Below, piece after piece: positions 10,060-64,000 of a stretch of DNA of 64,000 nucleotides. Origin of the DNA: Alkalitalea saponilacus. Lineage in GTDB: Bacteria > Bacteroidota > Bacteroidia > Bacteroidales > Marinilabiliaceae. Where the stretch lies: the NCBI RefSeq assembly GCF_900168165.1, contig NZ_FUYV01000009.1, positions 62,001 through 126,000 of the forward strand, read 5' to 3'. The notes below the pieces were generated by a model that saw nothing but the letters and a program-made list of their open reading frames with translations, was not told where the DNA came from and made no database searches. Position numbers and translations under genes: made by a program. Every line of letters starts with the position of its first letter. Positions within the stretch are counted from its first letter, which is position 1.

Positions 10060-10109
10060 AAGTATATAATAAACAAGTTTTTTCCCATCATACTTAAAAA
10101 AGAAGCAGA

Positions 10110-10304: not shown

Positions 10305-10328
10305 TAGAATATTTTTTGGTGAACAATG

Positions 10329-10372
10329 AAAAAAGGTTGGTAACTGCTTTAGCAGTTAACCAACCTTTTTTT
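10329..10372 (+). terminator. Strong rho-independent terminator
   Basis: GGTTGG-TAACTGC pairs with GCAGTTA-ACCAACC across a TTTA loop with one bulged base. It is flanked by an A run on the left and seven T on the right, so it may work in both directions. Confidence 0.85.
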
Positions 10373-16320: not shown

Positions 16321-16352
16321 AAGCCTGCAAATCATACGATTTGCAGGCTTTT
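16316..16352 (-). terminator. Terminator of the tRNA-Pro transcript
   Basis: A 13-bp perfect stem pairs AAGCCTGCAAATC (16321-16333) with GATTTGCAGGCTT (16338-16350) across a 4-base loop. On the minus strand it is followed by TTTTGTGATTTTT. Confidence 0.85.
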
Positions 16353-16372
16353 AGTTTTGTTTGATGTTGATT

Positions 16373-16450
16373 TGGTCGGGATGAGAAGATTCGAACTTCC
16401 GACCCCTCGCCCCCCAGACGAGTACTCTAACCGGACTGAGCTACATCCCG
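16373..16450 (-). tRNA. tRNA-Pro (anticodon GGG)
   Basis: On the minus strand the acceptor stem CGGGATG/CATCCCG, a D arm (GCTC...GAGT), an anticodon arm with loop CTGGGGG (anticodon GGG) and a T arm with TTCGAAT fold into a standard cloverleaf. The discriminator A is followed by an encoded CCA (16375-16373). It has its own promoter and terminator. Confidence 0.95.
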
Positions 16451-16481
16451 AACTTAATGATGCTTTTCTAAAAAAGCAGTG

Positions 16482-16513
16482 CAAAGATAACAACTTTTAT
16501 CATTAGACACAAC
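16482..16513 (-). promoter_or_regulatory. Promoter of tRNA-Pro
   Basis: On the minus strand TATCTTTG (16489-16482) fits the -7 box, with GTTG about 20 bases upstream as a 3/4 match to TTTG. It lies 32 bases before the tRNA. TGCTTTT/AAAAGCA (16461-16478) forms a small hairpin between them. The remaining bases to 16708 hold no recognisable feature. Confidence 0.55.
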
Positions 16514-16708
16514 CTCAACCTCCTTAAAAAATAGGGACATTTCCTCATAAGATATTAACAAATCTGTTTTCGTATTCAATTACAAATCTTTGCGCCAGCA
16601 AAACATTCTAATGTTAGTATAAAATAATTCCCATCCGCGATAAATTACAGTTCCTCCATTAAATTCGTCGTTTTAGCGAAATTCTCACCATTAATAAACA
16701 AAATCATC

Positions 16709-16716
16709 TATTTTTG
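16709..16716 (+). promoter_or_regulatory. Possible -7 box upstream of the sigma factor gene
   Basis: TATTTTTG fits TAnnTTTG about 75 bases before the ATG. No TTTG is present 19-20 bases further up, so another sigma factor (possibly its own product) may be used. Confidence 0.35.
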
Positions 16717-16791
16717 TAAAACCATATCAGAAGCATCCATGTTAGAGATATTAGGATCATCATCCCCAAAGAAACCAGGATAGAACATTTT

Positions 16792-17406
16792 ATGAGTACG
16801 AACGGCCAAACAAAAGAAGAGACCTTTTTGCTAAATGGGTTGATGCGTGGAGAAGAGTCCTTCTACCGCAGGCTGTTCGATCTTTACTACAAACAACTGG
16901 TTATATTTGCCAACCGTATCCTAAACGACGATGACCAGTCCCGCAATGTGGTGCAGGATGTATTCGTGATGATCTTTGATAAACGATCAGAGTTAAACAT
17001 TCATACAAGTCTGAAAGCACACCTTTATCAAACCGTTAAAAACAGATGCTTGAACATTGTAAAACGGGACAAAATTATTCATGAGCACCATCAAAATATT
17101 CTGAGCAGATCAAATCACTTTATCGAGCCATCAGAAAATTTGGAATATACTGAACTGGAGGAGAAAATCAACAACACCATCAACAGTCTTCCCGATCAGT
17201 GTCAGAGAATATTCAAAATGAGTCGCTTCGAGGGACACTCCAATCAGGATATTGCCGACCAGCTTGACATATCCAAAAGAACTGTAGAAACGCAAATCAG
17301 TAAAGCACTAAAAAAGCTTCGGGAAGAATTGTCGAAAAGCCAGATGTTGCCGCCGATATTGGCTGTTTTATTTTGCCTGATGCAGCCATCTCTGATGCTG
17401 ATCTGA
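16792..17406 (+). CDS. ECF-type RNA polymerase sigma-70 factor
   Basis: The 204-residue protein shows region 2 (FYRRLFDLYYKQLVIFANR, then NVVQDVFVMIF) and region 4 (LPDQCQRIFKMSRFEGHSN, then IADQLDISKRTVETQI), the layout of Bacteroidota ECF sigma factors that pair with FecR anti-sigma proteins. An odd hydrophobic tail (LPPILAVLFCLMQPSLMLI) ends the protein and might contact the membrane or the anti-sigma factor. It heads a block with a small unknown gene, a FecR anti-sigma gene and an STN-type TonB receptor, the usual cell-surface signalling set. Confidence 0.93.
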   Translation: MSTNGQTKEETFLLNGLMRGEESFYRRLFDLYYKQLVIFANRILNDDDQSRNVVQDVFVMIFDKRSELNIHTSLKAHLYQTVKNRCLNIVKRDKIIHEHHQNILSRSNHFIEPSENLEYTELEEKINNTINSLPDQCQRIFKMSRFEGHSNQDIADQLDISKRTVETQISKALKKLREELSKSQMLPPILAVLFCLMQPSLMLI

Positions 17407-17648
17407 TGCCTTGTATTTTCTTTTTTAAAAGAGCCTGGCACTTCCTGTTCTAAACACGAATTTCATTCAACTTCTATTCAATCAATAAAAAAATAACATT
17501 TTTTATACGTGTATGGGGAGGCTCGTTTGTCATATGAGTGATTAACCATTAATGGACGTTATCCGTCTATGAGCCAATATCATTTTGTTAGATCACGCCT
17601 TAATCATTATAAAAATCAAATAATTGTAACCATTAAAACCCAAGAGAG

Positions 17649-17834
17649 ATGGAATTTTTGTTGCAACTAATAGCAGACATGTTTGGAACGGTTCAAGCCG
17701 AAGAGACAGCTAAAACAATGCAAACAGCAGAGCCTGAAGCAACGGTATCCAAAGCAGCCAATGCTGTGGAGAAATCATTGCAGGAACCTGTGCCCGAAAC
17801 ACCAAATTTATTCAATGTCATTCAGTTTCGTTAA
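17649..17834 (+). CDS. Small acidic protein of unknown function
   Basis: The 61-residue frame has a purine-rich site (AAGAGAG) directly before the ATG. It starts with a short hydrophobic helix (FLLQLIADMF) followed by an Ala/Glu/Pro-rich, low-complexity acidic stretch. No family was recognised. It sits alone between the sigma and anti-sigma genes, where an extra gene is not usual. It may be a small accessory of the signalling set, or a chance frame. Confidence 0.5.
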   Translation: MEFLLQLIADMFGTVQAEETAKTMQTAEPEATVSKAANAVEKSLQEPVPETPNLFNVIQFR

Positions 17835-17886
17835 TAACCTTGGCATTAAGTAATACCTAAACCGGAACAAATTGTATTATAATCGT

Positions 17887-18843
17887 ATGACTTCTAATAT
17901 CAACAACCAGGAAGAGTTGATTGTGAGATACCTATGTGGTGATACATCACCCGAAGAGATAATCACAATTGAATCCTTGCTAGAAAATGACCGGGAATTT
18001 ATTCAGCTTTTTAATGAAACCCGGTTTGTTTGGGAGCAGGCTGCAAAACCCTGTTACAACCCCGAACAAGATTGGCAAGCCATCCGTCGGCGCATTGGTT
18101 TCACAAAAAAGAAATCGGGAGCTCTTTCATTTTTCATGAGAGTTGCCGCTGTAATTGGATTGGTGATATCAGTATCCGCAGGATTATGGGTTTATTGGAA
18201 TGTACCCGGATATGGAAGATGGGTTGTATTTGAAACGGGTGCATCGTCGGACTCGATAGTATTACCCGATCAAAGCATCGTGTTTCTTAACAGAAACTCT
18301 TCCCTTAAGTTTCTGAACTCATTTAAGCCTGACCAAAGAACCGTTGCACTGACCGGCGAAGGCTACTTTGAAATTCAACAGGACAAAGACCGTCCATTTA
18401 AAGTTGAGACCGGAATCGTTCAGGTTCATGTAACCGGTACAGCATTTCATCTGGATGCAACTCACGAAAATGGCATTATTGAACTCAATGTCACCAAAGG
18501 AGGTGTAACCATATATAGTCCAACCGGCAGTCTTGATGTAAAGCAGGGAGAAAGAGCGTTGGCCGGACAAAGATTGATTCAAAAATCGCTCATATCTGAT
18601 AATAATTTTCTGAGTTGGAAAACCGGGTTACTGGAATTTGATAATGCCACTCTTTACGAAATAGCAAAAACTCTTAAAGATCATTTCCCGGAAATTGAAG
18701 CATTCAACATAAAAGACACCACCAACATTAAAGTAACCACCCGTTTTCAGAAACAGTCGCTTCATGACATAACTGAAGAATTATCATTACATTTTCAAAA
18801 AAAGTTTGCACTTCATAACGGAGTTTTAGTAATCTCTGATTAA
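17887..18843 (+). CDS. FecR-family anti-sigma factor
   Basis: ATG at 17887 is preferred over the in-frame TTG at 17872. Residues 1-80 form the cytoplasmic anti-sigma part (EELIVRYLCGDTSPEEIITIE). One membrane helix lies at about 85-105 (AAVIGLVISVSAGLWVYW). The periplasmic FecR domain follows (GEGYFEIQQDKDRPFKVETG, then VTGTAFHLDA) with a C-terminal STN-like segment. It holds the ECF sigma factor until the TonB receptor signals through its STN domain. Confidence 0.92.
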   Translation: MTSNINNQEELIVRYLCGDTSPEEIITIESLLENDREFIQLFNETRFVWEQAAKPCYNPEQDWQAIRRRIGFTKKKSGALSFFMRVAAVIGLVISVSAGLWVYWNVPGYGRWVVFETGASSDSIVLPDQSIVFLNRNSSLKFLNSFKPDQRTVALTGEGYFEIQQDKDRPFKVETGIVQVHVTGTAFHLDATHENGIIELNVTKGGVTIYSPTGSLDVKQGERALAGQRLIQKSLISDNNFLSWKTGLLEFDNATLYEIAKTLKDHFPEIEAFNIKDTTNIKVTTRFQKQSLHDITEELSLHFQKKFALHNGVLVISD

Positions 18844-18849
18844 TTTTAT

Positions 18850-18880
18850 GGGATCATTCAATGCTTATTTAAATGATCCC
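18850..18880 (+). promoter_or_regulatory. Stem-loop that buries the TonB receptor start codon
   Basis: GGGATCATT (18850-18858) is exactly complementary to AATGATCCC (18872-18880), and the receptor ATG (18873-18875) lies inside the second arm. The loop is 13 bases. In the mRNA this 9-bp stem would hide the start codon just after the anti-sigma stop at 18843. Confidence 0.6.
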
Positions 18881-21554
18881 TTCCAGACCCTTATTAATTC
18901 AAATAATCACTCGAATCATATACGGGGTTGTTCTCTTAACCGGAACAACCTCGCAATTTTTATTGGCACAAACCGATGTTACCCCCCGTATTCAATTAGA
19001 ACCTGTCAGCGGCAGCACTCCCGAACTGATTCGGCTACTGGAAGAGAAATCGGGATGGGTCATCAGCTACAGTTCACGACTACCAATTCCTGAGCGCGGC
19101 CAGCTTTCCGGCCATGAAAAGACACTGCTTCAGCACGTCAGTCATCTGTTTAAGGACGCTCAATTCTCATATACAATTCGTTCAAACAGGCTGATTCTTA
19201 CACCTCCGCCAAAGAGAGAGATAAAACATACTATCAGCGGCTTTGTCCGTGAAGCCGGAAGCATGGAATCCTTGCCGGCAGCAAATATCTATACCTCCCC
19301 TGATTTTAAAGGAACCGTAAGTAATAACTATGGGTTTTTCAGCATCACTCTAATTCCGGGTAAGCATACCCTGAATGCATCGTACGTTGGTTACCAAACA
19401 GAATCAAAACCCCTGGAACTAAACAATGACACAGTCATCGTTTTTAATCTTCAACCCCACCTCCTGCTTGGTGAAATTGATGTGGTTGGACAACTATCCT
19501 ACGCACAGTTAAACGCGGCCAGAATGGGAAACATTCTGATTCCCATTCACGAAATAAAACAAACGCCTGCACTTTTAGGAGAAACTGATATTGTTAAGAA
19601 CATCCAGATGCTTCCCGGCATTCAGGGTGGAAGCGAAGGTTTCAGTGGCTTGTACGTGCGTGGTGGAGGACCCGATCAAAATTTAATCTTGCTGGATGAT
19701 GTTCCCATATACAACATAGGACATCTGCTTGGTTTCTTCTCGGTGTTTAACGCCGATGCCGTTAAACACGTTTCTGTACTTAAAAGTGGGTTTCCAGCTC
19801 GCTATGGAGGTAGAATATCGTCGGTAATAGACATTAGAATGCTGGAAGGAAACAACGAACGGGTTGAAGGAAACATCAACGTTGGGTTGCTATCCTCAGG
19901 CGTTTCCCTTAATGGACCGGTTCAAAAAGACCGGTCTGGGTTTGCAATCTCTTTCAGAAGAACCTATATGGATGCCATTGCCGCGTTGGCTCAGCGTGGA
20001 CAAGAAGAAACCACCAACTACTATTTTTTCGATCTAAACGCCAAATACAATCACATTATAAACGACAAAAACCGACTCTATCTCAGTGCTTATTGGGGAC
20101 GTGATAAATACATGACAACTTACAACTTTGTAGACCTTACTTTAAACAATGGTTCACCTGGTGGTGAACCGTTGAGAACCACAATAAACGACGAAAACAA
20201 TGCCGGTTGGGGGAATGTTGTAACTGCATTAAGATGGAACCACGTGTTCAATCAACGACTGTTTGGAAATCTCACTGCCACCTTTTCTGATTATCGTTTT
20301 TTCATAGGTGTAGAACGTAATCATGAAATCAACAATAATTGGGACAGTTTCGAGCAAAGATATATCAGCGGAATAAGAGATTATAGTGTTAAGGTAGATT
20401 TTGACTACTACCCGGCAAACAACCATCAGGTAAAATTTGGATTGAATGCCATCCAGCACGAATTTAACCCCGGGGTGGATGTGGTTCAACGAAGCCCGGG
20501 TACTTCCCAGCCGGTAGATACAACTTTAGGAGATGTCAGACTCACCGGAGGTGAATACCATTTTTATCTGGAAGACGAGTTTACGCTGATGCGTAAACTC
20601 AGGGTAAATGCAGGTGCAAGATATGTGCTTTTTAATGGAAACGATAAATTTTATCACTCACTTGAACCCAGAATCTCATTAAATTACGAATTGTCGCCCA
20701 TGTGGAACATGCGCACCGCGTATTCTCACATGTCACAGTTTATTCATTTGGTAAGTTCTTCCAATGTGGCGCTGCCAACAGACTTATGGTTGCCGGTTAC
20801 CGAAACCATTCCCCCCATGTATAGCAGACAGGTTTCACTGGGTACCGACTGGAAATCAGGATTTAATCAGAACTACTCCATATCGGGCGATGTTTACTAC
20901 AAACAGATGAAAAACCTCCTGCATTACAAAGAGAGCACAGGATTTTTTGATTACAGCACCGAATGGGAAGATAAGCTGACAGGAGGAGATGGGGAGTCCT
21001 ACGGCCTTGAGCTGATTCTGCGAAAAAACAACGGTGATTTCACCGGATGGTTGAGTTATACTTTGGCAAAAACCACTAACCAATTTGAAGAGATCAACAA
21101 TGGCAGATCCTTTCCCGCTAGGTTTGACCGTCGCCATGACATCAACCTGAACCTGAAATATCAGTTTAATGAACGAATTGATGGCAACCTGAATTGGCAA
21201 TTTGGTAGTGGAACCCCCATTACCCTCCCTTCAGAGAAATATTTTGCACCCGATTTTCCATTTTTGGATGAATCGCCAGGCAGCGGTTTTTCAGAAGATG
21301 CAGTTTCACTGAATCAATACAGAATGCCCCCTTTTCATAGAATGGATGTAGGTTTCAATTTCTCCAAACAGAGAGACCGAACCGAAAGAATATGGAGTCT
21401 GGGAGTGATAAATCTTTATGGACGTCAAAACCCTTTCCTCCTATATTTCGCATCCGATTCAAACTCCGAGCCGGGTTCTGCACAGCGCAACTTAAAGCAG
21501 TTGAGCCTATTCCCCTTCCCCATTCCTTATGTGAGATGGACTCTGATTTTTTAG
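18873..21554 (+). CDS. TonB-dependent outer-membrane receptor with STN and CarboxypepD_reg-like domains
   Basis: The 893-residue precursor has a signal peptide (about 1-32). An STN domain follows at about 45-115 (IQLEPVSGSTPELIRLLEEK, then GWVISYSSRL), then a carboxypeptidase-regulatory-like beta sandwich at about 125-205 (ISGFVREAGSMESLPAANIY). The plug comes at about 220-330 (MLPGIQGGSEGFSGLYVRGG, then LLDDVPIYN), then a 22-strand barrel. The STN domain lets ligand binding signal to the FecR / ECF pair encoded just upstream. The ligand is unknown and no SusD-like gene follows. Translation may be limited by the start-codon stem-loop. Confidence 0.94.
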   Translation: MIPSRPLLIQIITRIIYGVVLLTGTTSQFLLAQTDVTPRIQLEPVSGSTPELIRLLEEKSGWVISYSSRLPIPERGQLSGHEKTLLQHVSHLFKDAQFSYTIRSNRLILTPPPKREIKHTISGFVREAGSMESLPAANIYTSPDFKGTVSNNYGFFSITLIPGKHTLNASYVGYQTESKPLELNNDTVIVFNLQPHLLLGEIDVVGQLSYAQLNAARMGNILIPIHEIKQTPALLGETDIVKNIQMLPGIQGGSEGFSGLYVRGGGPDQNLILLDDVPIYNIGHLLGFFSVFNADAVKHVSVLKSGFPARYGGRISSVIDIRMLEGNNERVEGNINVGLLSSGVSLNGPVQKDRSGFAISFRRTYMDAIAALAQRGQEETTNYYFFDLNAKYNHIINDKNRLYLSAYWGRDKYMTTYNFVDLTLNNGSPGGEPLRTTINDENNAGWGNVVTALRWNHVFNQRLFGNLTATFSDYRFFIGVERNHEINNNWDSFEQRYISGIRDYSVKVDFDYYPANNHQVKFGLNAIQHEFNPGVDVVQRSPGTSQPVDTTLGDVRLTGGEYHFYLEDEFTLMRKLRVNAGARYVLFNGNDKFYHSLEPRISLNYELSPMWNMRTAYSHMSQFIHLVSSSNVALPTDLWLPVTETIPPMYSRQVSLGTDWKSGFNQNYSISGDVYYKQMKNLLHYKESTGFFDYSTEWEDKLTGGDGESYGLELILRKNNGDFTGWLSYTLAKTTNQFEEINNGRSFPARFDRRHDINLNLKYQFNERIDGNLNWQFGSGTPITLPSEKYFAPDFPFLDESPGSGFSEDAVSLNQYRMPPFHRMDVGFNFSKQRDRTERIWSLGVINLYGRQNPFLLYFASDSNSEPGSAQRNLKQLSLFPFPIPYVRWTLIF

Positions 21555-54379: not shown

Positions 54380-55522
54380 TTAACCCTTCAAAAACTTCCC
54401 CGGTGTGATGCCTTCAATTTGTTTAAACGCCCGGATAAAAGAACTGGCTGAGCCAAAACCTGATTCTGATGCAAGATAATCCAGAGAATAATCACAAGCA
54501 GGGTTGTCTTTCATCAGTTTCTTTGCATACTCAACCCTGTAACGGTTGATAAAGCCATTAAAACTCTCACCAAACTCTTCGTTAATAATACTTGAAATAT
54601 AGGTTCGGTTAGTATTGAGCTTCTTACAAAGCAATGTGATTCGTAAATCAGGCATCCGAAACAACTCCTCTTTAACCATCAAATCAAGAATCAAATCTTT
54701 TAGCAACTCTCGCGTTGTGGTCAATTGCGGAAGAGAATCGGTCTCCTCAGACTCCTCCTCTACATCCTTTACCGTAAATTGTTGAATACTTCCCTGATAA
54801 CCAATTAAAAACAACAAAACAGAAAACAAGCCGGAAGGAATAATTAGCATTTCAGGATGATCAAGAAAAAAACCACGACCAATCACATTCACTGTTGAGC
54901 TGGTGATGGATGTAAATAAAAAAACCAGGCTCAATAACCTCACCCATATCAGTTGTCGGTTTTGCAGATTGCTGTAAAATTGTAATAAACGATCATCATA
55001 CTGACTCGCCAATCTATATCCTGAAACCAAATATATGATTACCTGAAAAGCAAATACAATCCGACTGATAAAAAAAACAACAGCCATAAGGGAAACATTA
55101 CCACCCATAAAAATTGTTTCACGATTCTGATAAATCAGTACTTCACGATAATAGACCATTTTATCTTCCTGTGAAGAATAGTACATTATTACTGAAAGAA
55201 TAGTGGCCAAAACAGCAGCTGGCGCAAAATGCCAAACATTCCGATAATTGATCTTAACATCTCGTGTTAACATCCTAACGTAACAATAATAAAGGGGGTA
55301 AACAGACAAAGAAGTGAAAAGATACAACGAGTCCAATGCAATATAAAACTCCTTATAACCAAGAAAATAAGAAGCATGAGTAAAAAAAAGCAAAGCAGAA
55401 AAAAACATAAACACCGACAAAACAAGTGCCGGAGGATTATTCATTCGTCCTTTTAAAAAAAGTAAAATCGCCCATATTACAGTGATATAAAATGGACTAA
55501 GTGCAGTTATTAAAAAAAACAT
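54380..55522 (-). CDS. Membrane-bound AraC-type regulator
   Basis: The 380-residue protein has seven hydrophobic segments over residues 1-235 (ITALSPFYITVIWAILLFL onward), then an AraC helix-turn-helix at about 275-380 (LRITLLCKKLNTNRTYISSI, then YLASESGFGSASSFIRAFKQ). This 7TM-AraC layout occurs widely in Bacteroidota; the membrane part probably senses an external or lipid signal. It converges with pheT and is the nearest regulator to the peptide locus at 56-64 kb, which may be coincidence. Confidence 0.9.
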   Translation of the reverse strand: MFFLITALSPFYITVIWAILLFLKGRMNNPPALVLSVFMFFSALLFFTHASYFLGYKEFYIALDSLYLFTSLSVYPLYYCYVRMLTRDVKINYRNVWHFAPAAVLATILSVIMYYSSQEDKMVYYREVLIYQNRETIFMGGNVSLMAVVFFISRIVFAFQVIIYLVSGYRLASQYDDRLLQFYSNLQNRQLIWVRLLSLVFLFTSITSSTVNVIGRGFFLDHPEMLIIPSGLFSVLLFLIGYQGSIQQFTVKDVEEESEETDSLPQLTTTRELLKDLILDLMVKEELFRMPDLRITLLCKKLNTNRTYISSIINEEFGESFNGFINRYRVEYAKKLMKDNPACDYSLDYLASESGFGSASSFIRAFKQIEGITPGKFLKG

Positions 55523-56138: not shown

Positions 56139-56516
56139 ATGAGAACCTATACTAACCATATCCATACCTCTTTCCAAGTGCTGCTGATAGCTACTAAGCT
56201 TTGCAACGTATTTCTGTCTTTCACAGGATTTTTCAACGACCTTCTTACTTCCAAACTATTCGGACTGGGAATGGCATGCCTTCTTGTTTTTGCAATAGCT
56301 ACAGGTTTTTTCTCAGTGGCAACTGTGTTTAATATGAATGTGTTACAAGGTAATAGTGCCGGGGATGTTTCGTTAGACAGTATACTTGTGATGGCGCAGG
56401 CGCAGGGCGATGAGTCAAGTAATGAGCCAAGTAACAGGAGATGTGTCATTTGGGATGGTGAATGTTGGCCTACACTTAGTGAAGATCCTGATTGGCCAGC
56501 ATGTGCAGGGTGCTAA
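56139..56516 (+). CDS. Chimeric secreted peptide: ligase N-terminus fused to NVEALA-like peptide
   Basis: Residues 1-48 (MRTYTNHIHTSFQVLLIATK to GLGMACL) match the N-terminus of the ligase at 58167. From residue 51 (FAIATGFFSVATVFNMNVLQ) the protein is the leader of the peptide family at 60831, 62179 and 62502. It then has its own tail (CVIWDGECW ... CAGC) with four Cys. The junction lies in TTTTTGCAATAGC, shared by the peptide genes. The product would have two hydrophobic segments rather than a plain signal peptide. It is followed by a 14-bp hairpin and a lipoprotein gene. Real translation is likely but unproven. Confidence 0.65.
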   Translation: MRTYTNHIHTSFQVLLIATKLCNVFLSFTGFFNDLLTSKLFGLGMACLLVFAIATGFFSVATVFNMNVLQGNSAGDVSLDSILVMAQAQGDESSNEPSNRRCVIWDGECWPTLSEDPDWPACAGC

Positions 56517-56524
56517 TAGTTTTA

Positions 56525-56561
56525 GTAGCCGGTCTGATATAAACCACATCAGACCGGCTAC
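56525..56561 (+). terminator. Intercistronic hairpin after the chimeric peptide
   Basis: GTAGCCGGTCTGAT pairs perfectly (14 bp) with ATCAGACCGGCTAC across a 9-base loop, 8 bases after the stop. No T run follows, so it may protect the 3' end or partly terminate rather than stop transcription. Confidence 0.7.
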
Positions 56562-56618
56562 CCCCTATAGTGGAAAAACTCCACAATTACTGTTTTAACA
56601 TTTAACCGACCATAATTT

Positions 56619-57770
56619 ATGATCACAAATACATATAAATTTTATGTACTAATCATGACATTTCTCTCCATTATGTCATGCAACAATAAAGCTATATTTA
56701 TTGAATCAAGTCAAAAACTGTCAAAACAGGAATCTCTTCTTTCAATCAAGATTCCTCCTAATTTCCACCCGCAAAGCAAATACATTCAGGTTCTTAAAGG
56801 AGACAGTTCTAAAAACATACTTGCATATGGTAGTAATAACCAAATACATTTTTTCTGTTTAGAAAGTTTGAGTTTACAAAAATCAACTAACTATCAGCAG
56901 TATGGCCCCGAGGGAATTTCAACTTATACGGGCTTCCATGTAATAAATATGGACTCTGTTGTCTTAACATCGCAAACCTCAGTTATATTGACAGACACTT
57001 ACGATAAAATCCTCCAAAAATTGGATTTTATCGAATGGAACTCGCAACACACTGACCAACCATACCTCATTTTTGCTCCATCACGTGGGAGCAGGAATAG
57101 TGCGGTAAGAATTAATGATAATATATTTTTCTTGAGCTTTCAATTTGATCTTAAAAGTGATGATTTTAAAAACACGCCTATTGGCCTATATTACAACCTC
57201 AAAGACAATAGCATGCATGAAGCGGAAATGAAATATCCTGAATTTCCTTCAAATTACACAAGCTTATCTCACAATCCTACGATGGCGATTAAAGATAATT
57301 GTTTAATATATTCATTTAGTGTTCTTGATGAAATCTATCTCTTTGATAAAACTAAAGGGGTTACAAATAAACAGAATTTCAGCAGATTTAATAGAGTTAG
57401 AGTTAACACTAATTCTGGTGGCAATAGTTTTTATAATCAAATTAAAAGACCTCGATACTTATCAATTATATACGATCCTTGGAAAGATGTTTTCTATCGG
57501 ATATTCTACCCAGGGTATGAGGTGTCAGGGAATTACGATGATAATTATTACTTTTCTTTGATTGCTACACCTCCTGTTTTTTCTGTAATAATAATAGATT
57601 CTGAATTTAAAATTATTGGAGAAACAACCATGCCGTTTCAACATTATGATCCTTCTTCAAATTTCATAACAAAAGACGGATTATTTTTCGGTTTACACGA
57701 AAACCACCCCGAATTCGATCCAGATCATCTGAAATTCGCAAGATTTACTGTTGAACCAATAAACCAATAA
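56619..57770 (+). CDS. Lipoprotein A, predicted beta-propeller (DUF4221-like)
   Basis: The 383-residue protein has a lipobox at FLSIMSC (Cys23). The mature part is all-beta in outline with repeated segments such as LKGDSSKNILAYGSNNQIHF and FDKTKGV, resembling the DUF4221 / six-bladed propeller lipoproteins that Bacteroidales encode next to NVEALA peptides. No catalytic residues were seen. It lies 102 bases after the chimeric peptide gene, beyond the hairpin. Confidence 0.75.
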   Translation: MITNTYKFYVLIMTFLSIMSCNNKAIFIESSQKLSKQESLLSIKIPPNFHPQSKYIQVLKGDSSKNILAYGSNNQIHFFCLESLSLQKSTNYQQYGPEGISTYTGFHVINMDSVVLTSQTSVILTDTYDKILQKLDFIEWNSQHTDQPYLIFAPSRGSRNSAVRINDNIFFLSFQFDLKSDDFKNTPIGLYYNLKDNSMHEAEMKYPEFPSNYTSLSHNPTMAIKDNCLIYSFSVLDEIYLFDKTKGVTNKQNFSRFNRVRVNTNSGGNSFYNQIKRPRYLSIIYDPWKDVFYRIFYPGYEVSGNYDDNYYFSLIATPPVFSVIIIDSEFKIIGETTMPFQHYDPSSNFITKDGLFFGLHENHPEFDPDHLKFARFTVEPINQ

Positions 57771-58166
57771 CAAGAAGTTATCCGCATATAGCATATCGTT
57801 TTTTTAATATTTGGCCTGTCCTGCGCCCTTGTTAGTCCTTAATCTTCTTATATACAAAACATCAACAACACAGTAAACAATGACAATTTACAAACCATTC
57901 CCGGTTCTAGGCTTCCGGAATCATCAAATATTATGTATCAGAATTATATTGTGTTTAAATTCCGCAACACTGAAAACATTAAACTTTAAACATTGAACTT
58001 AAAATATAATCAACCTCAACAACCATGCGCCAAAAACATAAATTAAGTATTATTAACATAACCCCCCCCCCGATATTTGATAATATAAATAATGTTAATA
58101 CATTTGTAATAGTTACAATTTCTTTAATCCGAACCCCAAACAAAGTAGAGACCCTAATTCCCAAAA
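57771..58166 (+). promoter_or_regulatory. Spacer with poly-C tract and consensus promoter for the ligase gene
   Basis: No gene is present. TTTG (58076-58079), 19 bases, TACATTTG (58099-58106) is a full promoter match. A run of ten C (58062-58071) lies four bases upstream of the -33 box. The last ~150 bases resemble those before the chimeric peptide gene (for example CAACCTCAAC, then CAAAAACATAAA), showing duplication of the regulatory region. Confidence 0.75.
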
Positions 58167-60425
58167 ATGAGAACCTTTACTAACCATATCCACCTCTCTT
58201 TCCAAGTGCTGCTTATTGCTACTACGCTTTGCAGCTTATTTCTAACTTTCACAGGATTTTTCAACGACCTTCTTACGTCCAAACTATTCGGACTGGGAAT
58301 GGCATGCCTGTTTGTTGTGGGGTATTTTGTTGTTTCTTCACTTTTCAGGAAACAGTTAAAAGTATCTGCAATTGATGTTTTGGTGTTACTGTTCGCAGCA
58401 TGGTATTTTATTAGTGAGCTGATTTCTGGCAGCGCTTTAAGACCTTTGGATCATTTATTATTTCCACTGCTCCTTTGGGGAGTAATCTATATGTTTGTTC
58501 GGCAGGCATCTGGCAACATGTACTTTATATTGGGTGTGGCTATTGTTTGGATGATGGTTGTTTGCGCACAGGCGATACTGGGTTTAATGCAACTCTATGG
58601 CTTTGAGAAGTCATTCCACGGCCTGTTTAGTATTACAGGAACATTTCACAATCCCGGACCATTTTCGGGGTTTGTGGTTAGTGGATTGCCGTTGGCATTG
58701 GGGGTAATTTGTTACACAAAGATTCACGGAGACAGTACGGAGAAACACAGAGGAATTTATTTAAAATGGGTGAACATCATCCTACCCTACGGTTTAATTG
58801 CCAAATATGCTATTCAGACTTTGGCATGGATAACTCTGATAGCAATATTGCTGATACTTCCGCCTGCTCAATCACGAGCGGCTTGGATTGCAGGCATTGC
58901 CGGTAGTTTATTTGTACTTGCCGGACACCCTAGGCTGTTAGCCTTTAAAGAAAATCTGAGAAATAAGTTTTTATCATTAAAAAAACCCATACGCATTCTG
59001 CTATTAACCGCCATTTTGCTACCCTTAGCCACAGCAGCTTTTGGCCTCTATACTATGAAACAAGGCTCAGCCGATGGCCGCCTGCTCATGTGGCAGGTTA
59101 CCTCTCAACTAATAAAAGAGCGCCCCATCACCGGACACGGCGCAGGCGCCTTCAATGCCCTTTACATGAACGAACAGGCCAACTGGTTCTCATCCGGCAA
59201 AGGCACCGAAGCCCAGGCCATGGTAGCCGGCTCACCCGAAGCCCCCTTCAACGAACCACTAAAACTATGGCTCGAAAAAGGACTCATTGGAATATTGATA
59301 GTCGGTGGAATTCTATATCTTATATTTTTCAAAAAAAGAACCAACAACCAAAAACTCTCAACCAACAACATTAAACTTCAAACCTCAAACTTTGAACCTA
59401 AAACTTCAAAAAACCTTCAACCCTATAACCTTTCGACCCAAAACCATAAACTCACAACTATAAACTATCAACCATCAACCCCGAACCATCAACCATCAAC
59501 CATCAACCCTGAACTATTCCCGATTCTCGGGACTTCGCTACGCTACGCAACCCAAAACCATAAACTCACAACTATAAACTATCAACCATCAACCCCGAAC
59601 CATCAACCATCAACCATCAACCCTGAACTATTCCCGATTCTCGGGACTTCGCTACGCTACGCAACCCAAAACCATAAACTCACAACTATAAACGATCAAC
59701 CATCAACCCAAAACTTCGAACTATCAACCGCAATAAAAGGAGCCCTCTTAACAGTCTTGACTTTCAGCCTATTCTCTTACCCCTTCGACATCAGCTCATT
59801 CATCCTGCAACTGGTCATTTTAGTAGCTATACTGGCAGGCACCACCAAAACACTGTTTAGCATTAGAGGAGGGAAAGTCCTGTTTCTGACAATTCCGGTA
59901 GCCATGCTATTAATCGCCGCAACCATTCATTTCATACCCCAGCGGCAATCACATTACCAAGCCATGAAAATCTGGCAGGAGGCCGACCGCTTTTACAGTT
60001 TTGGAAGCTACCATACAGCAGTTGACGCTTACGAAGAAGCCTTCCCGGCACTCCAAACCACCGGCCTCTTCCTGCAAATGTATGGCAAAGCCCTCAACAT
60101 GGATGAACAACACCAAAAAAGCAACGAAATACTGGCAATGGCGCAACAACGCTTCAGCAGTCAAATCATCCAAAACACCCTTGGCGACAACCACAAAGCC
60201 CTGGGTAATTACCCCGCAGCCGAAGCCGCATACATTAAAAGCACAAACATGATACCATCATTACTATTACCAAAATATTTACTGGCCAAACTTTACACAG
60301 AAAGCGGCCAACACCATAAAGCCAAACAAACCGCCGAAGAGATCCTCAACAGCCCGGTAAAAGTTGAGTCCTCGGCGACGAGAGAGATTATTAATGAAAT
60401 GAGATCAGTTATCAATGAGCAGTGA
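58167..60425 (+). CDS. O-antigen-ligase / Wzy-like membrane protein with TPR tail
   Basis: The 752-residue protein has about ten membrane segments before residue 390 with Wzy/ligase marks: TGTFHNPGPFSGFVVSGLPL (about 170), SRAAWIAGIAG (about 235), and DGRLLMWQVTSQLIKERPIT with GHGAGAFNALY (about 300). Residues ~392-525 are a low-complexity Thr/Asn/Gln/Pro stretch that includes two exact 38-residue repeats. Two or three membrane helices follow, then TPR-like repeats at about 590-740 (SYHTAVDAYEEAFPALQTTG). The family joins glycans to lipid A or to proteins (PglL-type). In this peptide cluster, glycosylation of exported products is a possible role, unproven. Confidence 0.85.
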   Translation: MRTFTNHIHLSFQVLLIATTLCSLFLTFTGFFNDLLTSKLFGLGMACLFVVGYFVVSSLFRKQLKVSAIDVLVLLFAAWYFISELISGSALRPLDHLLFPLLLWGVIYMFVRQASGNMYFILGVAIVWMMVVCAQAILGLMQLYGFEKSFHGLFSITGTFHNPGPFSGFVVSGLPLALGVICYTKIHGDSTEKHRGIYLKWVNIILPYGLIAKYAIQTLAWITLIAILLILPPAQSRAAWIAGIAGSLFVLAGHPRLLAFKENLRNKFLSLKKPIRILLLTAILLPLATAAFGLYTMKQGSADGRLLMWQVTSQLIKERPITGHGAGAFNALYMNEQANWFSSGKGTEAQAMVAGSPEAPFNEPLKLWLEKGLIGILIVGGILYLIFFKKRTNNQKLSTNNIKLQTSNFEPKTSKNLQPYNLSTQNHKLTTINYQPSTPNHQPSTINPELFPILGTSLRYATQNHKLTTINYQPSTPNHQPSTINPELFPILGTSLRYATQNHKLTTINDQPSTQNFELSTAIKGALLTVLTFSLFSYPFDISSFILQLVILVAILAGTTKTLFSIRGGKVLFLTIPVAMLLIAATIHFIPQRQSHYQAMKIWQEADRFYSFGSYHTAVDAYEEAFPALQTTGLFLQMYGKALNMDEQHQKSNEILAMAQQRFSSQIIQNTLGDNHKALGNYPAAEAAYIKSTNMIPSLLLPKYLLAKLYTESGQHHKAKQTAEEILNSPVKVESSATREIINEMRSVINEQ
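59340..59735 (+). repeat. Exact 114-bp in-frame tandem repeat inside the ligase gene
   Basis: Copies begin at 59436, 59550 and 59664 (third partial). Each contains ACCATAAACTCACAACTATA-type units, repeated CAACCATCAACC words and a CCCGATTCTCGGG hairpin. The period is 38 codons, so copy-number change keeps the frame. Bases 59340-59435 are a less regular stretch of the same kind. Confidence 0.9.
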
Positions 60426-60540
60426 ACAGTGAACAGTTATCAGTTATCAATGAACAGTCATCAGTGAACAGTGAGTTAACTAATAACTGAACACTGATAA
60501 CTGATAACTGATAACTGGTAACTGAACACTGATTTTTCTG
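60426..60540. repeat. Inverted low-complexity repeat after the ligase gene
   Basis: CAGTGAACAGT and TCAGTTATCA units on the left (60420-60475) are mirrored by AACTGATAACTGATAACTG and AACTGAACACTGA on the right (60485-60532), so the transcript end folds into a long hairpin. Confidence 0.65.
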
Positions 60541-60547
60541 GGAAAAA

Positions 60548-60589
60548 GAAGAGGAAGCCCCTGTGCTCCTACGCCCACGCTTCCTCTTC
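60548..60589 (+). terminator. 11-bp hairpin in the leader region
   Basis: GAAGAGGAAGC pairs perfectly with GCTTCCTCTTC across a 20-base loop rich in C. It may end the ligase transcript or be part of a structured leader for the next gene. Confidence 0.55.
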
Positions 60590-60631
60590 CGACTCCCTCC
60601 AAACTTAAAAAAGAAAGGAGGTAAAACGTTT

Positions 60632-60679
60632 ATGAAAAAAATCGTCAGTATTATGCCGAAGAACTTCGGTATAATGTGA
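60632..60679 (+). CDS. 15-residue mini-ORF with strong Shine-Dalgarno
   Basis: AAAGGAGG (60614-60621) precedes ATG at 60632 by 10 bases, unusually strong for a Bacteroidota gene. The frame encodes MKKIVSIMPKNFGIM. ATTATGCCGAAG and CTTCGGTATAAT within it form an 11-12 bp inverted repeat, and CCTCC (60596-60600) can pair with GGAGG. It looks like a regulated leader ORF; no product is known. Confidence 0.45.
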   Translation: MKKIVSIMPKNFGIM

Positions 60680-60781
60680 CAAAGATAAAGTTTTAAAACA
60701 AATTACGATAACTGAATTATTCGGTTACAAAAAATGTACCTGCCAGGCAGTGATGCATTTCTATTAAAAGTTTTAATTCAA

Positions 60782-60800
60782 CAAGCTGTTTTCAAAACAG
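60782..60800 (+). promoter_or_regulatory. Perfect palindrome upstream of peptide 1
   Basis: AGCTGTTTT-C-AAAACAGCT lies 31 bases before the peptide ATG. It may be an operator or a leader hairpin. The spacer 60680-60830 otherwise holds no recognised promoter. Confidence 0.45.
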
Positions 60801-60830
60801 CTAATCTTTAAACAAGTAATTTTTATAACA

Positions 60831-61061
60831 ATGAAGAAAAAGTTAATTTTTGCAATAGCAACAGGTTTTTTCGCAGTAGCAACTGTAGTTAATATGAACA
60901 TGTTACAGGCTGATAGTGCCGGGGATGTTACGCTGGAGAGTATTGCAACGATGGCGCAGGCGCAAGTAGAATGGGGAGGTAGTAATGGCATCTGTATGAA
61001 CATACCTTGGGGTTGGTGCTTGTGGGATGACGGTTTTTTTATTAATGGCATATTCATTTAA
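60831..61061 (+). CDS. NVEALA-like secreted peptide 1
   Basis: The 76-residue precursor has a signal-peptide leader (MKKKLIFAIATGFFAVATVV), then SAGDVTLESIATMAQAQ, which matches the spacing of the DVxLxNVEALA motif of the Bacteroidales NVEALA family. The 30-residue tail (VEWGGSNGICMNIPWGWCLW...) has two Cys and many Trp/Gly. The mature peptide is probably exported, with a disulfide possible. A hairpin and lipoprotein B gene follow. Function in the family is unknown. Confidence 0.8.
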   Translation: MKKKLIFAIATGFFAVATVVNMNMLQADSAGDVTLESIATMAQAQVEWGGSNGICMNIPWGWCLWDDGFFINGIFI

Positions 61062-61068
61062 ACAAGTT

Positions 61069-61100
61069 TTATGCGGAAAAGCTTATGCTTTTCCGCATAA
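61069..61100 (+). terminator. Intercistronic hairpin after peptide 1
   Basis: TTATGCGGAAAAGC pairs perfectly (14 bp) with GCTTTTCCGCATAA across a TTAT loop, 7 bases after the stop. TTAATT follows. It separates the peptide from lipoprotein B. Confidence 0.8.
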
Positions 61101-61120
61101 TTAATTCACTTTGAAAAACT

Positions 61121-62185
61121 ATGAAAAACATAATCAAAATACCTTTCGTTATTGCAATATTTTCGATTATTGCAAATGGATGTAACCCTAAGTATAAACC
61201 AGATTATCCGATTTACCATATACAAAATGATGTTGTTAATATTGATTCCGGTTTTTTTGGCAATCCTAACAAGATGCTAATCTCAGATTCTCTATTGTTC
61301 TTCGAAGATGAAGTAAATAACTACTATTTTGGTGTAATAGACATTAAAAACTTGATTTTTTTAAAGAGGTTTGGGAAAAAAGGCAGTGGGCCAAATGAGA
61401 TTATCACGCCGTCTAGTTTATTTATAAAAAATGAAAAGTTTTCCTTTAATACCGTTAACACAAATATAATAGCAGAATTTCCTTTCAAAGAAATTTTCAA
61501 TTCTCCTACTGAACCTAAAATGAACATTATTGCAAATCTAAGAGTAAAAAATAAAGAGGTAATGTATTCATTTATGACTCCCTTAATGATTGATAAATAC
61601 TATTTAGCAACAGGATTCTTTTCAAATGGAAAATATGCTCTAATTGATGTTAAAAATAATAGAGATTCCATATTTGGCTTTCATCCTATAACAGAAAATA
61701 TTGGACAATTTGAATTAGGAATTATTTTTCAATCGGTACTTGTACATCATCCTAGTAAAAGAAGAGTTGTAAATGTTAGTCTTCTTACAAATGATCTATT
61801 AGAAGTAATTACCTATTGCGAAAATCAACAATTTACAATTAAATCAAACACTTCATCATATAATCCAACTTTAGCAACAACAGGAGAACGGATTCATTTA
61901 TCATCTGAAAGCAAGTTTACTTACCTTAATTTCTCTGTAACCGATAAGTTTATTTACCTGTTATATTCAGGTAAATCAGTCGCTGAACATGGTTATGATG
62001 CTGCATTTGGTAATACAATTCACGTATTTGATTGGGAACTTAATAAAGTATGTGAATATGTTCTGGATTTTAATTTACAGTCAATAGCAGTTACTGCTGA
62101 TGATAGATATTTATATTCTTTTGGAGCTATAACAAGTAATGTTGAATTATTAAAATGGAGTTTAACTCATAATAGTAGAAGTTAA
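61121..62185 (+). CDS. Lipoprotein B, predicted six-bladed beta-propeller (BF3164-like)
   Basis: The 354-residue protein has a lipobox at IANGC (about 21). Mature segments such as FGVIDIKNLIFLKRFGKKGS with the GSGPNEI turn are typical of BF3164-like / 6-bladed propeller lipoproteins. Its stop codon TAA (62183-62185) lies within sequence homologous to the leader of the peptide family (AAGTTAATTTT), so the gene end was formed by recombination with the next peptide gene. A few native C-terminal residues may be missing. Confidence 0.8.
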   Translation: MKNIIKIPFVIAIFSIIANGCNPKYKPDYPIYHIQNDVVNIDSGFFGNPNKMLISDSLLFFEDEVNNYYFGVIDIKNLIFLKRFGKKGSGPNEIITPSSLFIKNEKFSFNTVNTNIIAEFPFKEIFNSPTEPKMNIIANLRVKNKEVMYSFMTPLMIDKYYLATGFFSNGKYALIDVKNNRDSIFGFHPITENIGQFELGIIFQSVLVHHPSKRRVVNVSLLTNDLLEVITYCENQQFTIKSNTSSYNPTLATTGERIHLSSESKFTYLNFSVTDKFIYLLYSGKSVAEHGYDAAFGNTIHVFDWELNKVCEYVLDFNLQSIAVTADDRYLYSFGAITSNVELLKWSLTHNSRS

Positions 62186-62397
62186 TTTTCGCAATAGCAA
62201 CAGGTTTTTTCGCAGTGGCAACAGTGTTTAATATGAATATGTTACAGGCCAATAGTGCAGGTGATGTATCGTTGGAGAGTATTATGATTATGCAGCAGGC
62301 CGAGGCGGAAAGTTTTGGTTGTCCAAATGGTTGTCTGACATCTAGGGGCATGTGTTATTGTTTTGGATTCCATCGATATGAGGAAAAAAGATGGTAA
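62179..62397 (+). pseudogene. NVEALA-like peptide 2, start codon lost
   Basis: From AAG at 62179 the frame reads KLIFAIATGFFAVATVFNMN and continues to a full tail with four Cys (SFGCPNGCLTSRGMCYCFGF), but the codon before is TAG and the expected ATG-AAG-AAA is missing. The first usable start is GTG at 62215, which would delete half the signal peptide. Translation could restart after the overlapping lipoprotein B stop, but export would be doubtful. The tail is intact, suggesting recent damage or a stored cassette. Confidence 0.7.
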
Positions 62398-62408
62398 TGC
62401 TATTGTTT

Positions 62409-62443
62409 ACTTGGACTGCCTTTTATTGGCAGTCCAAGTTTTC
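62409..62443 (+). terminator. Hairpin after peptide 2
   Basis: ACTTGGACTGCC pairs perfectly (12 bp) with GGCAGTCCAAGT across a 7-base loop, followed by TTTTC. It is the most terminator-like of the four peptide hairpins. Confidence 0.8.
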
Positions 62444-62501
62444 ACGTCTCAGCTTATTCAAACTTCTTTCACATATTTCATTAAACAACTAATTTAAAAA
62501 A

Positions 62502-62723
62502 ATGAAAAAGAAATTAATTTTTGCAATAACAACAGGTTTTTTCGCAGTGGCGACTGTGTTTAATATGACTATGTTACAAGCCAATAGTAGCGGTGATGTT
62601 TCATTGGAGAGCATTATGATTATGCAGCAGGCCGAGGCGGAAAGTTCTGCTAATCCATGTGGTAGCACTAAGGGCTATTGTTATGATCGTGGGTGGAGAC
62701 CCTTTATTGAACTTCACTGGTAA
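62502..62723 (+). CDS. NVEALA-like secreted peptide 3
   Basis: The 73-residue precursor has the family leader MKKKLIFAITTGFFAVATVF and SSGDVSLESIMIMQQAEAES. The nucleotide sequence of the leader is nearly identical to peptide 2 up to GAGGCGGAAAGTT, after which the tails are unrelated. The tail SANPCGSTKGYCYDRGWRPF has two Cys. A hairpin and lipoprotein C follow. Confidence 0.8.
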   Translation: MKKKLIFAITTGFFAVATVFNMTMLQANSSGDVSLESIMIMQQAEAESSANPCGSTKGYCYDRGWRPFIELHW

Positions 62724-62749
62724 CATCATGAATAACTAAATAAATAAAA

Positions 62750-62796
62750 GAAGTGAAATAGAGTTGAGGTTATAATTCAGCTCAATTATTCACTTC
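62750..62796 (+). terminator. Intercistronic hairpin after peptide 3
   Basis: GAAGTGAA (62750-62757) pairs with TTCACTTC (62789-62796), with an inner TTGAG/CTCAA pairing. It lies 26 bases after the peptide stop and just before lipoprotein C. Confidence 0.65.
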
Positions 62797-62822
62797 ATAA
62801 CAAGTAAACTAACGTCAATATT

Positions 62823-63869
62823 ATGAAACTTTTAAAATACATAAGCCCAATTGTATTCATTGCTCTAATTGGATGCAATAACCATAAACTTGATAATGCA
62901 AAACCATTCAGTATCCAAGCAGTTAAAACAGTGAATATTCAAGATCTAATTGTGGATTTTAATAAGGATTTCTATGTGCGGTTTGGAGATTTTCAATTAA
63001 TTGGCGACTATTTAATGTTTAATGATTTTACACCAACAAACGAAAAAGGAATCCACATATTTAACAGAAGTTCTTTTGAATATATTACAAGTACAGGTGT
63101 ATTGGGAAGAGGCCCTGGAGAGATTACCAGATTAGGACAAAGTGTTATCAGTTTTTGCGGAGACTTCTTTTGGGTTGATGACTACGGTTTAGAGGTTAGA
63201 TGGAAATTTCCTATAGATAGTGTCATTAGTAATAAGAACTTCTTACCTTCTATTAATAAAGCGATGGACAGCAAAATGTTTTTAGTAGATTATGAGCTTA
63301 TAAATGATAGTATAGCACTGGGAATTGCTGTAGTTCCGTTAAGTGCTAATGCAGCGGAAATGACTTTGGCGAAATATAATTTTAATACCTCCAAAACGGA
63401 AAGGTACGGATATGAGCATTCTGCAATTAATGATCACCGACAAACATATTCAAGTTTTAAGCTGGATAGAAAAAATGATAGATATATAAGGGGTTATGTG
63501 AATTTAGACCTTATGACTATTTGTAATTTAAACGGAGACTTAATATATAACATATGTGGACCTTTAATCAACAATCAAAATAATGAATTTAATCAATACT
63601 TCCAAGGAGTAGATATTTATAAAGACTTGATACTTGCTTCATACCTAGGAGATAAGCATGTAATATTAGAAGAAGGTCAACCAGCACAAATGGAATATCC
63701 ATCTAAGTTATTAACTTTCAATAGTACAGGAGATCTTATTAAAGTAATTGAGACAGGATATAGCTTTTCTTCATTTTGCATAGATGAAGTCTACGATAGA
63801 GTAATTCTCTATTTTGAAGATAAAGAGAACCCTCTCGGTTATTTTTCCTTAGAAGGGATTTTAAACTAA
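62823..63869 (+). CDS. Lipoprotein C, predicted six-bladed beta-propeller
   Basis: The 348-residue protein has a lipobox at FIALIGC (Cys18). The first propeller blade with GIHIFNRSSFEYITSTGVLG and the GRGPGEI turn is typical of the BF3164-like / 6-bladed propeller lipoproteins. It is a paralogue in outline of lipoprotein B but diverged in sequence. Position directly after peptide 3 and its hairpin repeats the cassette layout. Confidence 0.8.
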   Translation: MKLLKYISPIVFIALIGCNNHKLDNAKPFSIQAVKTVNIQDLIVDFNKDFYVRFGDFQLIGDYLMFNDFTPTNEKGIHIFNRSSFEYITSTGVLGRGPGEITRLGQSVISFCGDFFWVDDYGLEVRWKFPIDSVISNKNFLPSINKAMDSKMFLVDYELINDSIALGIAVVPLSANAAEMTLAKYNFNTSKTERYGYEHSAINDHRQTYSSFKLDRKNDRYIRGYVNLDLMTICNLNGDLIYNICGPLINNQNNEFNQYFQGVDIYKDLILASYLGDKHVILEEGQPAQMEYPSKLLTFNSTGDLIKVIETGYSFSSFCIDEVYDRVILYFEDKENPLGYFSLEGILN

Positions 63870-63918: not shown

Positions 63919-64000
63919 ATGAAGATTAAATTATTAGTAATGTCATTTACTATTCTGTTCTGCTCCTGTTCCCGTGTTTCTCAAAGCGAAAATGAGCTAC
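63919..64000 (+). CDS. Start of another lipoprotein gene (3' partial)
   Basis: ATG at 63919 opens a frame to the end of the window encoding KIKLLVMSFTILFCSCSRVS, a lipoprotein signal with Cys at the lipobox (LFCSC). It is probably the next lipoprotein of the cluster, here without a peptide gene before it (49 bases after lipoprotein C). Confidence 0.6.
   Translation, partial: MKIKLLVMSFTILFCSCSRVSQSENEL

Follow-up and report, generated by a model that had tools for sequence, protein, structure and literature searches.

What do four small genes do that share one leader and end in unrelated, cysteine-bearing tails, and what ties them to the propeller lipoproteins encoded beside them? The question is raised by a stretch of 64,000 nucleotides of Alkalitalea saponilacus (the window; positions 62,001 to 126,000 of contig NZ_FUYV01000009.1, here C55, of a 4.56 Mb assembly), where the four copies, peptides 1 to 4, lie on the forward strand at 56139-56516, 60831-61061, 62179-62397 and 62502-62723. 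A preliminary description of the window had reported one leader with unrelated tails holding two or four cysteines, and a lipoprotein gene behind three of the four. The sequence bears out all of this: the tails of peptides 1 to 4 hold four, two, four and two cysteines, and the lipoprotein genes follow copies 1, 2 and 4. At DNA level the four copies belong to a 155-nt repeat family (D1; 69-88% identity to the reference copy). The present analysis adds the ligase and TlpA-like genes as parts of the module, the chimeric leader of peptide 1, the startless peptide 3 and the pairing of peptides with propellers.

The leaders in the window are about 45 residues long and lack a double-glycine (GG) motif; in the clade to which they belong, hereafter the window clade, they end in SIAVMA, SIATMA, SIMIMQ and similar sequences, with a glutamate a few residues further on. 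Peptides 2 and 4 have an intact leader and a two-cysteine tail. The leader of peptide 1 is fused behind a ligase-like N-terminus, a 164-nt duplicate (90% identity) of the 5' end of the gene for the O-antigen-ligase-like protein (58167), and an internal ATG at 56271 would yield a shorter form; its four-cysteine tail is nearly matched in the relative G041 (L085:9480-9725), where it stands on a normal leader. Peptide 3, with the tail CPNGC..CYC, has lost its start codon, none being found ahead of the hydrophobic part, and its frame opens within the end of the lipoprotein gene at 61121-62185; its repeat DNA is 88% identical to that of peptide 4.

Three propeller lipoproteins are encoded on the same strand. 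The partner of peptide 1 (56619..57770) is a DUF4221 propeller (PF13970; E 6e-22) with a solved relative (3s9j; E 1.4e-13), that of peptide 2 (61121..62185) a TolB_like six-bladed propeller (PF15869; E 3.5e-26), and the partner that comes next after peptides 3 and 4 (62823..63869) is of a type here named prop3, without a significant Pfam match. An AlphaFold2 model of the latter, built from a four-row alignment (predicted local distance difference test, pLDDT, 63.2; predicted template modelling score, pTM, 0.68), retrieved many propellers with Foldseek, the top query template modelling score among the 50 rows listed being 0.56 for the DUF4221 structure 3s9j; with moderate confidence, the modelled protein resembles a β-propeller. 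Sequence searches turned up no relative with a solved structure for this lipoprotein, the TolB_like protein or the ligase, and no enzyme family was recognised for the three propellers.

Pairing of peptide tails and propeller lipoproteins

The layout of the window recurs in other genomes. In a set of 202 distinct peptides, which remained after removal of 41 duplicate tails, 30 peptides lying too close to a contig end and 17 that lacked the motif, a recognised propeller, that is, a match to one of the propellers of this genome at E < 1e-3, comes next after 163, namely 134 of the 170 canonical NVEALA peptides (PF14055) and 29 of the 32 peptides of the window clade. The other 39 are followed by another protein (32) or lack an open reading frame (ORF) of 200 amino acids downstream (7). 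The preliminary description had read the layout as that of precursor peptides accompanied by a partner lipoprotein and had proposed to count the co-occurrence of the two elsewhere; the 163/202 cases support the former and make the latter strong. An even number of cysteines is present in 175/202 tails, a count in which some fusion tails of the window clade are cut at the wrong leader end.

The pairing of tails and propellers was examined in 172 peptide-propeller pairs of seven families, drawn from this set and giving 10,198 comparisons, all cross-family. Pairs were dropped where there was no downstream ORF or a TlpA-like protein only, where the protein fell outside 280-470 amino acids, the gap exceeded 450 nt or the tail was shorter than 12 amino acids; the frameshifted copy at L017:10090 was left out, and peptides 3 and 4 share one propeller in this set. 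Most of the pairs (127/172) come from families f105 and f59, and pairs of one genus are not independent. Thirty-one comparisons reach a tail z of at least 8, and in 28 of these the propellers are also similar (Smith-Waterman score of at least 200), with three exceptions, against a base rate of 2.9%; 2000 within-family permutations gave a null mean of 0.96 and a maximum of 6. Lower tail cut-offs yield a similar propeller in 42/59 (z >= 6) and 62/191 (z >= 4) comparisons. The tail CPNGC..CYC of peptide 3, for example, recurs in G041, G035, f59 and f105, the propellers being similar in the comparisons listed, and the same type of propeller accompanies it in families that have NVEALA at the leader end, while leaders track the lineage and not the tail. 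The strongest result of the analysis, as judged from these sequence comparisons, is that tails and propellers change together as matched pairs.

Relationship of the leader to NVEALA and its distribution

The preliminary description had likened the leader to that of the NVEALA family, and the likeness withstands profile comparison. Aligned with hhalign, the window leader matches NVEALA at 92.6% (E 4.7e-7), and a hidden Markov model built from canonical NVEALA leaders only finds 22 matches (E <= 0.1) in 1653 ORFs of Marinilabiliaceae loci, 19 of which are peptides of the window clade, with E values from 7.5e-5 to 0.06 among the matches listed. Both groups share the length class, a lysine-rich start, a hydrophobic stretch, a leader end followed by glutamate, a cysteine tail and a downstream propeller lipoprotein. 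They differ in the leader end, which is SIAVMA-like in the window, where the literal NVEALA motif does not occur in leaders of the clade, and in that no protein of this genome exceeds the curated PF14055 cut-off, the four window peptides having no match at E <= 1. By sequence, the window leader is thus best described as a divergent relative of NVEALA.

Within the same family the leader profile matches 9/71 genomes, including Natronoflexus, Alkaliflexus, Geofilum and Marinilabilia (by contig matches). PF14055 is present in 15/198 genomes of the same order (six over the cut-off), in 56/118 of the family of G174 and in 22/121 of the family of G233 (18 over the cut-off), while one genome of f105 holds 23 matches. 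The family labels f1, f59, f105 and f106 are handles of the tool, f1 corresponding to Marinilabiliaceae by contig matches and taxonomy and f105, as a guess, to Bacteroidaceae. Similar genes for a peptide, a propeller and a ligase are also found on a contig titled Clostridium sp. MAG (L078), a label which may be wrong; the same locus carries an insertion-sequence-like insert ahead of a TlpA-like remnant.

Gene order and regulator-adjacent peptides

Clustering of 741 ORFs near peptides recovered a recurrent module of propellers (221 in 75 loci), TlpA-like proteins (75 in 56), a lipoprotein of approximately 650 amino acids (41 in 33), a Wzy_C-TPR protein (40 in 33), a membrane protein of approximately 344 amino acids (34 in 31) and a signal peptidase I (29 in 28), the last label resting on a Pfam scan of three members. 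Among 13 scanned members of the large lipoprotein (E <= 0.1), nine match Transglut_core and 12 match F5/8 type C. The membrane protein has two hydrophobic stretches, read by eye, and a C-terminal winged helix (Trans_reg_C in 12/16 scanned) that is PhoB/ToxR-like (PDB profile; E 5.2e-12); it is here called the membrane regulator. Synteny extends to the canonical NVEALA loci, which have the same neighbours together with signal peptidase I, the transglutaminase-like lipoprotein and, in some families, the divergent membrane regulator. A frequent order in f105 is divergent regulator, peptide, propeller, TlpA-like, peptide, propeller, transglutaminase-like, signal peptidase and ligase. No classic enzymes of ribosomally synthesized and post-translationally modified peptides (RiPPs), whether lanthipeptide, radical SAM, YcaO or graspetide, were found among the scanned members of recurrent neighbour clusters.

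One conserved type of peptide stands beside the regulator. A CX6-8C tail, mostly CxGxGS(V/I)DC-like, is carried by 29/29 peptides encoded divergently from a gene for a membrane regulator or a histidine kinase vs 34/174 others, counted on stretches of at least 6 kb and with the tail type noticed after regulator adjacency had been defined. Past tandem peptides, a propeller comes next for 159 of 173 peptides away from a regulator, while the 30 beside one are followed by a propeller (17), a TlpA-like gene (9), an unlabelled gene (3) or none (1). Such a difference would arise if protectors were required for effector peptides only, and the tail and gene-order counts together fit what one would expect of an inducer accompanied by pairs of effector and protector.

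A resistance-nodulation-division (RND) efflux set, consisting of an adaptor, a pump and sometimes an outer-membrane factor, was also observed near peptide genes in four families (adaptors: 15 in 14 loci), at L016:14076-15146 and 16022-19000, in L086, L089, L092, L094, L096, L100 and L119, and further in L196, L197, L208, L209, L214 and L216. It could reflect a shared export route or old synteny.

Hairpins downstream of the peptide genes

According to the preliminary description each peptide gene is followed by a strong hairpin, which holds for three of the four. Forward-strand hairpins follow peptide 1 (56525..56561; 14-bp stem; free energy dG -31.5; z -9.3), peptide 2 (61069..61100; dG -21.9; z -5.6) and peptide 3 (62410..62438; dG -24.5; z -6.4), the z value comparing the 70 nt downstream of the stop with 60 mononucleotide shuffles per sequence; the 70 nt after peptide 4 fold weakly (dG -11.6; z -2.5). 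Hairpins are enriched behind peptides generally, with z < -2 after 25/36 peptide ORFs in Marinilabiliaceae loci and 92/206 elsewhere vs 19/231 propellers (peptides vs propellers: Mann-Whitney p 4e-17). As their sequences vary between copies, it is the structure that seems to be conserved. They may act as a partial stop or stabiliser that lifts the level of the peptide over that of its partner.

Two other explanations of the hairpins were set aside. Intrinsic terminators do not fit the first three window hairpins, which have no run of five T behind them and are missing from the forward-strand terminator calls; the palindrome of peptide 2 is listed on the reverse strand, and the loop limit of eight in that listing would leave out hairpin 1 regardless. 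An integron-like or shufflon origin is unlikely, as the sequences vary by copy, the site precedes the propeller gene and DNA identity decays along the leader, reaching background in the tail.

Organization of the arrays in the genome

The array continues downstream of the window to approximately C55:146000, repeating ligase, peptide, propeller and TlpA-like genes in order with some parts absent, and two more arrays lie on contigs C90 and C52. The genome contains 11 leader copies at E <= 4.3e-6, and the arrays hold 7/8 of its DUF5128 propeller matches and all four TolB_like matches over the cut-off. The window ligase (58167..60425, forward strand) is an O-antigen-ligase-like membrane protein (Wzy_C, PF04932; E 7.3e-15) with a C-terminal TPR region. 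The C55 array contains four full-length copies of this gene, including the present one, which adjoins candidate acceptor peptide genes. Only the start of a TlpA-like CxxC lipoprotein (63919..64000, forward strand) falls within the window, the full gene being L015:9920-10465. The profile of this protein family matches StoA (E 1.7e-4), ResA (E 0.035) and, more weakly, others; CxxC is present in 66/75 members, Pfam thioredoxin matches are few and weak, and the fold assignment rests on the profile search, the AlphaFold2 model being poor (pLDDT 43.4).

Pairwise identity within the C55 array is 70-88% for the ligases (six pairs), 63-86% for the TlpA-like proteins (three) and 57-78% for the leaders (ten), while for the propellers the median alignment covers a quarter of the protein (15 pairs) and for the tails alignments are confined to short stretches. 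DNA identity between modules declines gradually, in steps, from 0.90-1.00 over the initial 45-50 nt of the leader through 0.76-0.84 and 0.61-0.67 to 0.44-0.48 in the tail, and two C90 copies share a near-identical upstream block and leader followed by unrelated DNA. Five of the 11 peptide genes are altered or broken (a fused leader, a lost start, a stop after the leader, a frameshift, and a lost start with a deletion), while the 13 propeller genes picked as queries are all full length and no propeller fragment is listed in L015-L018. This decay of peptides while propellers persist suits orphan protectors or listening receptors.

Proposed function and alternative explanations

We suggest that these genes form a multi-peptide antagonism, or else signalling, system of Bacteroidia in which the propellers would bind their own peptides, a reading which, on comparative sequence evidence, falls just short of probable. 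Specific binding between peptide and propeller is itself likely, given the matched pairs, and the role in antagonism is advanced tentatively. The small precursor would be exported across the inner membrane by its hydrophobic leader and cleaved at the conserved end of this leader, which is SIAVMA-like in the window and reads NVEALA in other groups, a few residues ahead of the glutamate; in many relatives a gene for signal peptidase I is adjacent. After release, the tail, whose cysteines are mostly even in number, would acquire its disulfides and fold with the help of the TlpA-like thiol protein, and the Wzy_C ligase-like protein or the transglutaminase-like one may modify it. The hairpin past the stop would leave peptide mRNA at a higher level than the mRNA of the gene that follows. 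Each propeller lipoprotein would then bind its own peptide, protecting its producer from the toxicity of variable peptides that act on other bacteria. Inducer peptides stand beside the regulator in class II bacteriocin loci, and in f105, f59 and f106 the one conserved two-cysteine peptide beside the membrane regulator may likewise serve induction of the operon. Taken as a whole, a diversified peptide-recognition system of Gram-negative Bacteroidia, with secreted disulfide peptides, their own signal peptidase and thiol protein, dedicated propellers, swappable tail-propeller cassettes placed after a common leader and one switch-on peptide, is conceivable but somewhat doubtful.

Several observations weigh against an antagonism system with protective propellers. 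The Mantel correlation over all pairs is weak (rho 0.085, reached in 0/2000 permutations) and declines to 0.043 (19/2000) for distant pairs and 0.061 (57/2000) across clades, with 111/2000 for the window clade only, in data where the leader ends are wrong for some window-clade fusions; most divergent pairs show no signal, so that the case for pairing rests on recognisably similar tails. Adjacent genes can, moreover, be co-inherited without interaction. Among 222 propellers with enough sequence in front of them, 151 are immediately preceded by a detected peptide, leaving about a third that look orphaned, and orphan propellers suit receptors as well as protectors. A membrane regulator of this type has no match in loci of the Marinilabiliaceae, the family of the window itself. 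Finally, surface export of lipoproteins follows acidic residues just after the lipobox cysteine, and of 188 propellers with a recognised lipobox (among 240), just 13 have at least two acidic residues right after the cysteine; most would by this rule face the periplasm, which nevertheless suits self-protection rather than reception at the surface.

The alternative that survives best, though still unlikely, is peptide signalling, in which the propellers would be receptors for quorum sensing or kin recognition, the regulator or a two-component system would relay the signal and tandem pairs would be separate channels. It accommodates the matched pairs, orphan propellers as listening receptors, and the single peptide type found in every case (29/29) beside a divergent membrane regulator, or a histidine kinase and response regulator. 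Most pairs of a locus, however, lie away from any regulator, a TlpA-like gene rather than a propeller comes next in 9/30 regulator-adjacent cases, and the missing Marinilabiliaceae regulator counts here as well. That the propeller is instead a tail-specific maturation or folding factor, neither receptor nor protector, is improbable: substrate recognition would also produce pairing, and the lipoprotein belongs to the same gene row as thiol, peptidase and ligase-like genes, yet the three window propellers have no recognised enzyme family and propellers exist without a detected peptide directly upstream. Less credible again is a glycosylation system, with the ligase-like protein as an O-oligosaccharyltransferase, the peptides as glycosylated surface parts and the propellers as accessories; four Wzy_C-TPR genes are interleaved with the C55 peptides and the ligase cluster spans 33 loci, but many of the fetched stretches, which are cut, show no ligase, the tails are hypervariable and rich in cysteine, and the ligase has no solved relative by sequence and no assigned acceptor site. 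Mere linkage, by which tail and propeller co-descend as neighbours without a functional tie, agrees with their adjacency, the low Mantel values and the gradual fading of DNA identity along the leader without a single sharp point, but is scarcely credible, since the equally close leader tracks lineage instead of the tail and a propeller so regularly comes next away from regulators.

Two other roles were considered and rejected for the window genes. A phage origin finds no match, the propeller at 62823-63869 having none by tblastn in 50,697 phage records and the leader DNA pattern occurring 0 times in viral contigs, and six proteins gave no PADLOC match to anti-phage defence.

Comparison with known systems

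The proposed antagonism system resembles the class II bacteriocin loci of Gram-positive bacteria in that an inducer-like peptide beside a regulator is accompanied by variable peptide-partner pairs, a layout present in f105, f59 and f106 and absent from the family of the window (0 regulator matches). It differs in having a propeller lipoprotein as partner, no GG leader and Gram-negative hosts.

Closer in phylogeny are the bacteroidetocins, small cysteine peptides of Bacteroidales that are, in the part of the report available, encoded with a thiol oxidoreductase (PMC6671954), Bacteroides being described there as lacking general disulfide machinery. In the same portion of that report their leader has 15 residues and is cleaved after GG, and they are described with a peptidase-ABC transporter but without an immunity protein (PMC6671954). 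Small cysteine peptides encoded with a gene for a thiol protein are thus common to both systems, as far as that portion goes; unlike the bacteroidetocins it describes, the window system has a long hydrophobic leader, a paired lipoprotein and, in relatives, signal peptidase I. No peptidase-ABC transporter of the bacteroidetocin type was found among the scanned members of recurrent neighbour clusters.

In Bacteroides thetaiotaomicron, the rows of a published table that were available name BT0662 as an O-antigen ligase, BT0663 as hypothetical, BT0664 as a 6-bladed propeller, BT0667 as signal peptidase I and BT0669 as an RND adaptor, with values of 0.113 to 0.437 and no significant iron effect in the rows BT0662-BT0669 (PMC10434189). 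By gene names in that table, this region parallels the present loci in ligase, propeller, signal peptidase I and RND adaptor, and we infer that it may include an NVEALA peptide. Together with the control genome of Bacteroides ihuae, these gene names suggest that gut Bacteroides carry such loci, in which case the peptides might mediate competition or communication there that has so far gone unnoticed. BfUbb, in the section of its report available, is a secreted toxin seemingly without need of an immunity protein (PMC5705921), and a survey of Bacteroidales RiPPs places emphasis on GG motifs in the part available (PMC10352776).

The open literature searched yielded no paper that names the NVEALA or BF3164 family and none that by title deals with DUF4221, DUF5128 or four Pfam identifiers, the matches to the latter group being on Plasmodium or an enzyme-annotation method and apparently to gene identifiers. 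The system is real and occurs widely; within the reach of these searches, it has not been described as such. It ties together the orphan families NVEALA, TolB_like, DUF4221, DUF5128, TlpA-like, Wzy_C-TPR, the transglutaminase-like lipoprotein and the membrane regulator, each of which gains a testable role. If the diversified peptide recognition outlined above is real, it would be the first system of peptide communication and kin discrimination or self-protection built on propeller lipoproteins known to us.

Additional genes and repeats

An AraC-type regulator with a hydrophobic N-terminal half (54380..55522, reverse strand; PF12833; E 1.6e-16) is divergent from peptide 1 and adjoins the array also in the sister species G041. 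It may be a stand-in here for the membrane regulator, its tie to the array being uncertain.

The ligase-like gene contains three 114-nt direct repeats (59436-59777; two identical, one 66%) ahead of its TPR part, and dense short direct and inverted repeats lie around and after its stop (60411-60533). Further fusions of ligase and leader occur at L017:7133-7399 and 10090-10362, one with a stop directly after the leader and one frameshifted. A 595 amino acid lipoprotein inside the array (L015:10600-12387) has a weak alpha/beta-hydrolase match and a short fragment in G041, while the propeller protein at L017:12095-13222 ends in a cysteine-rich tail (GCSGGSFCWGC), as though peptide and propeller had been joined.

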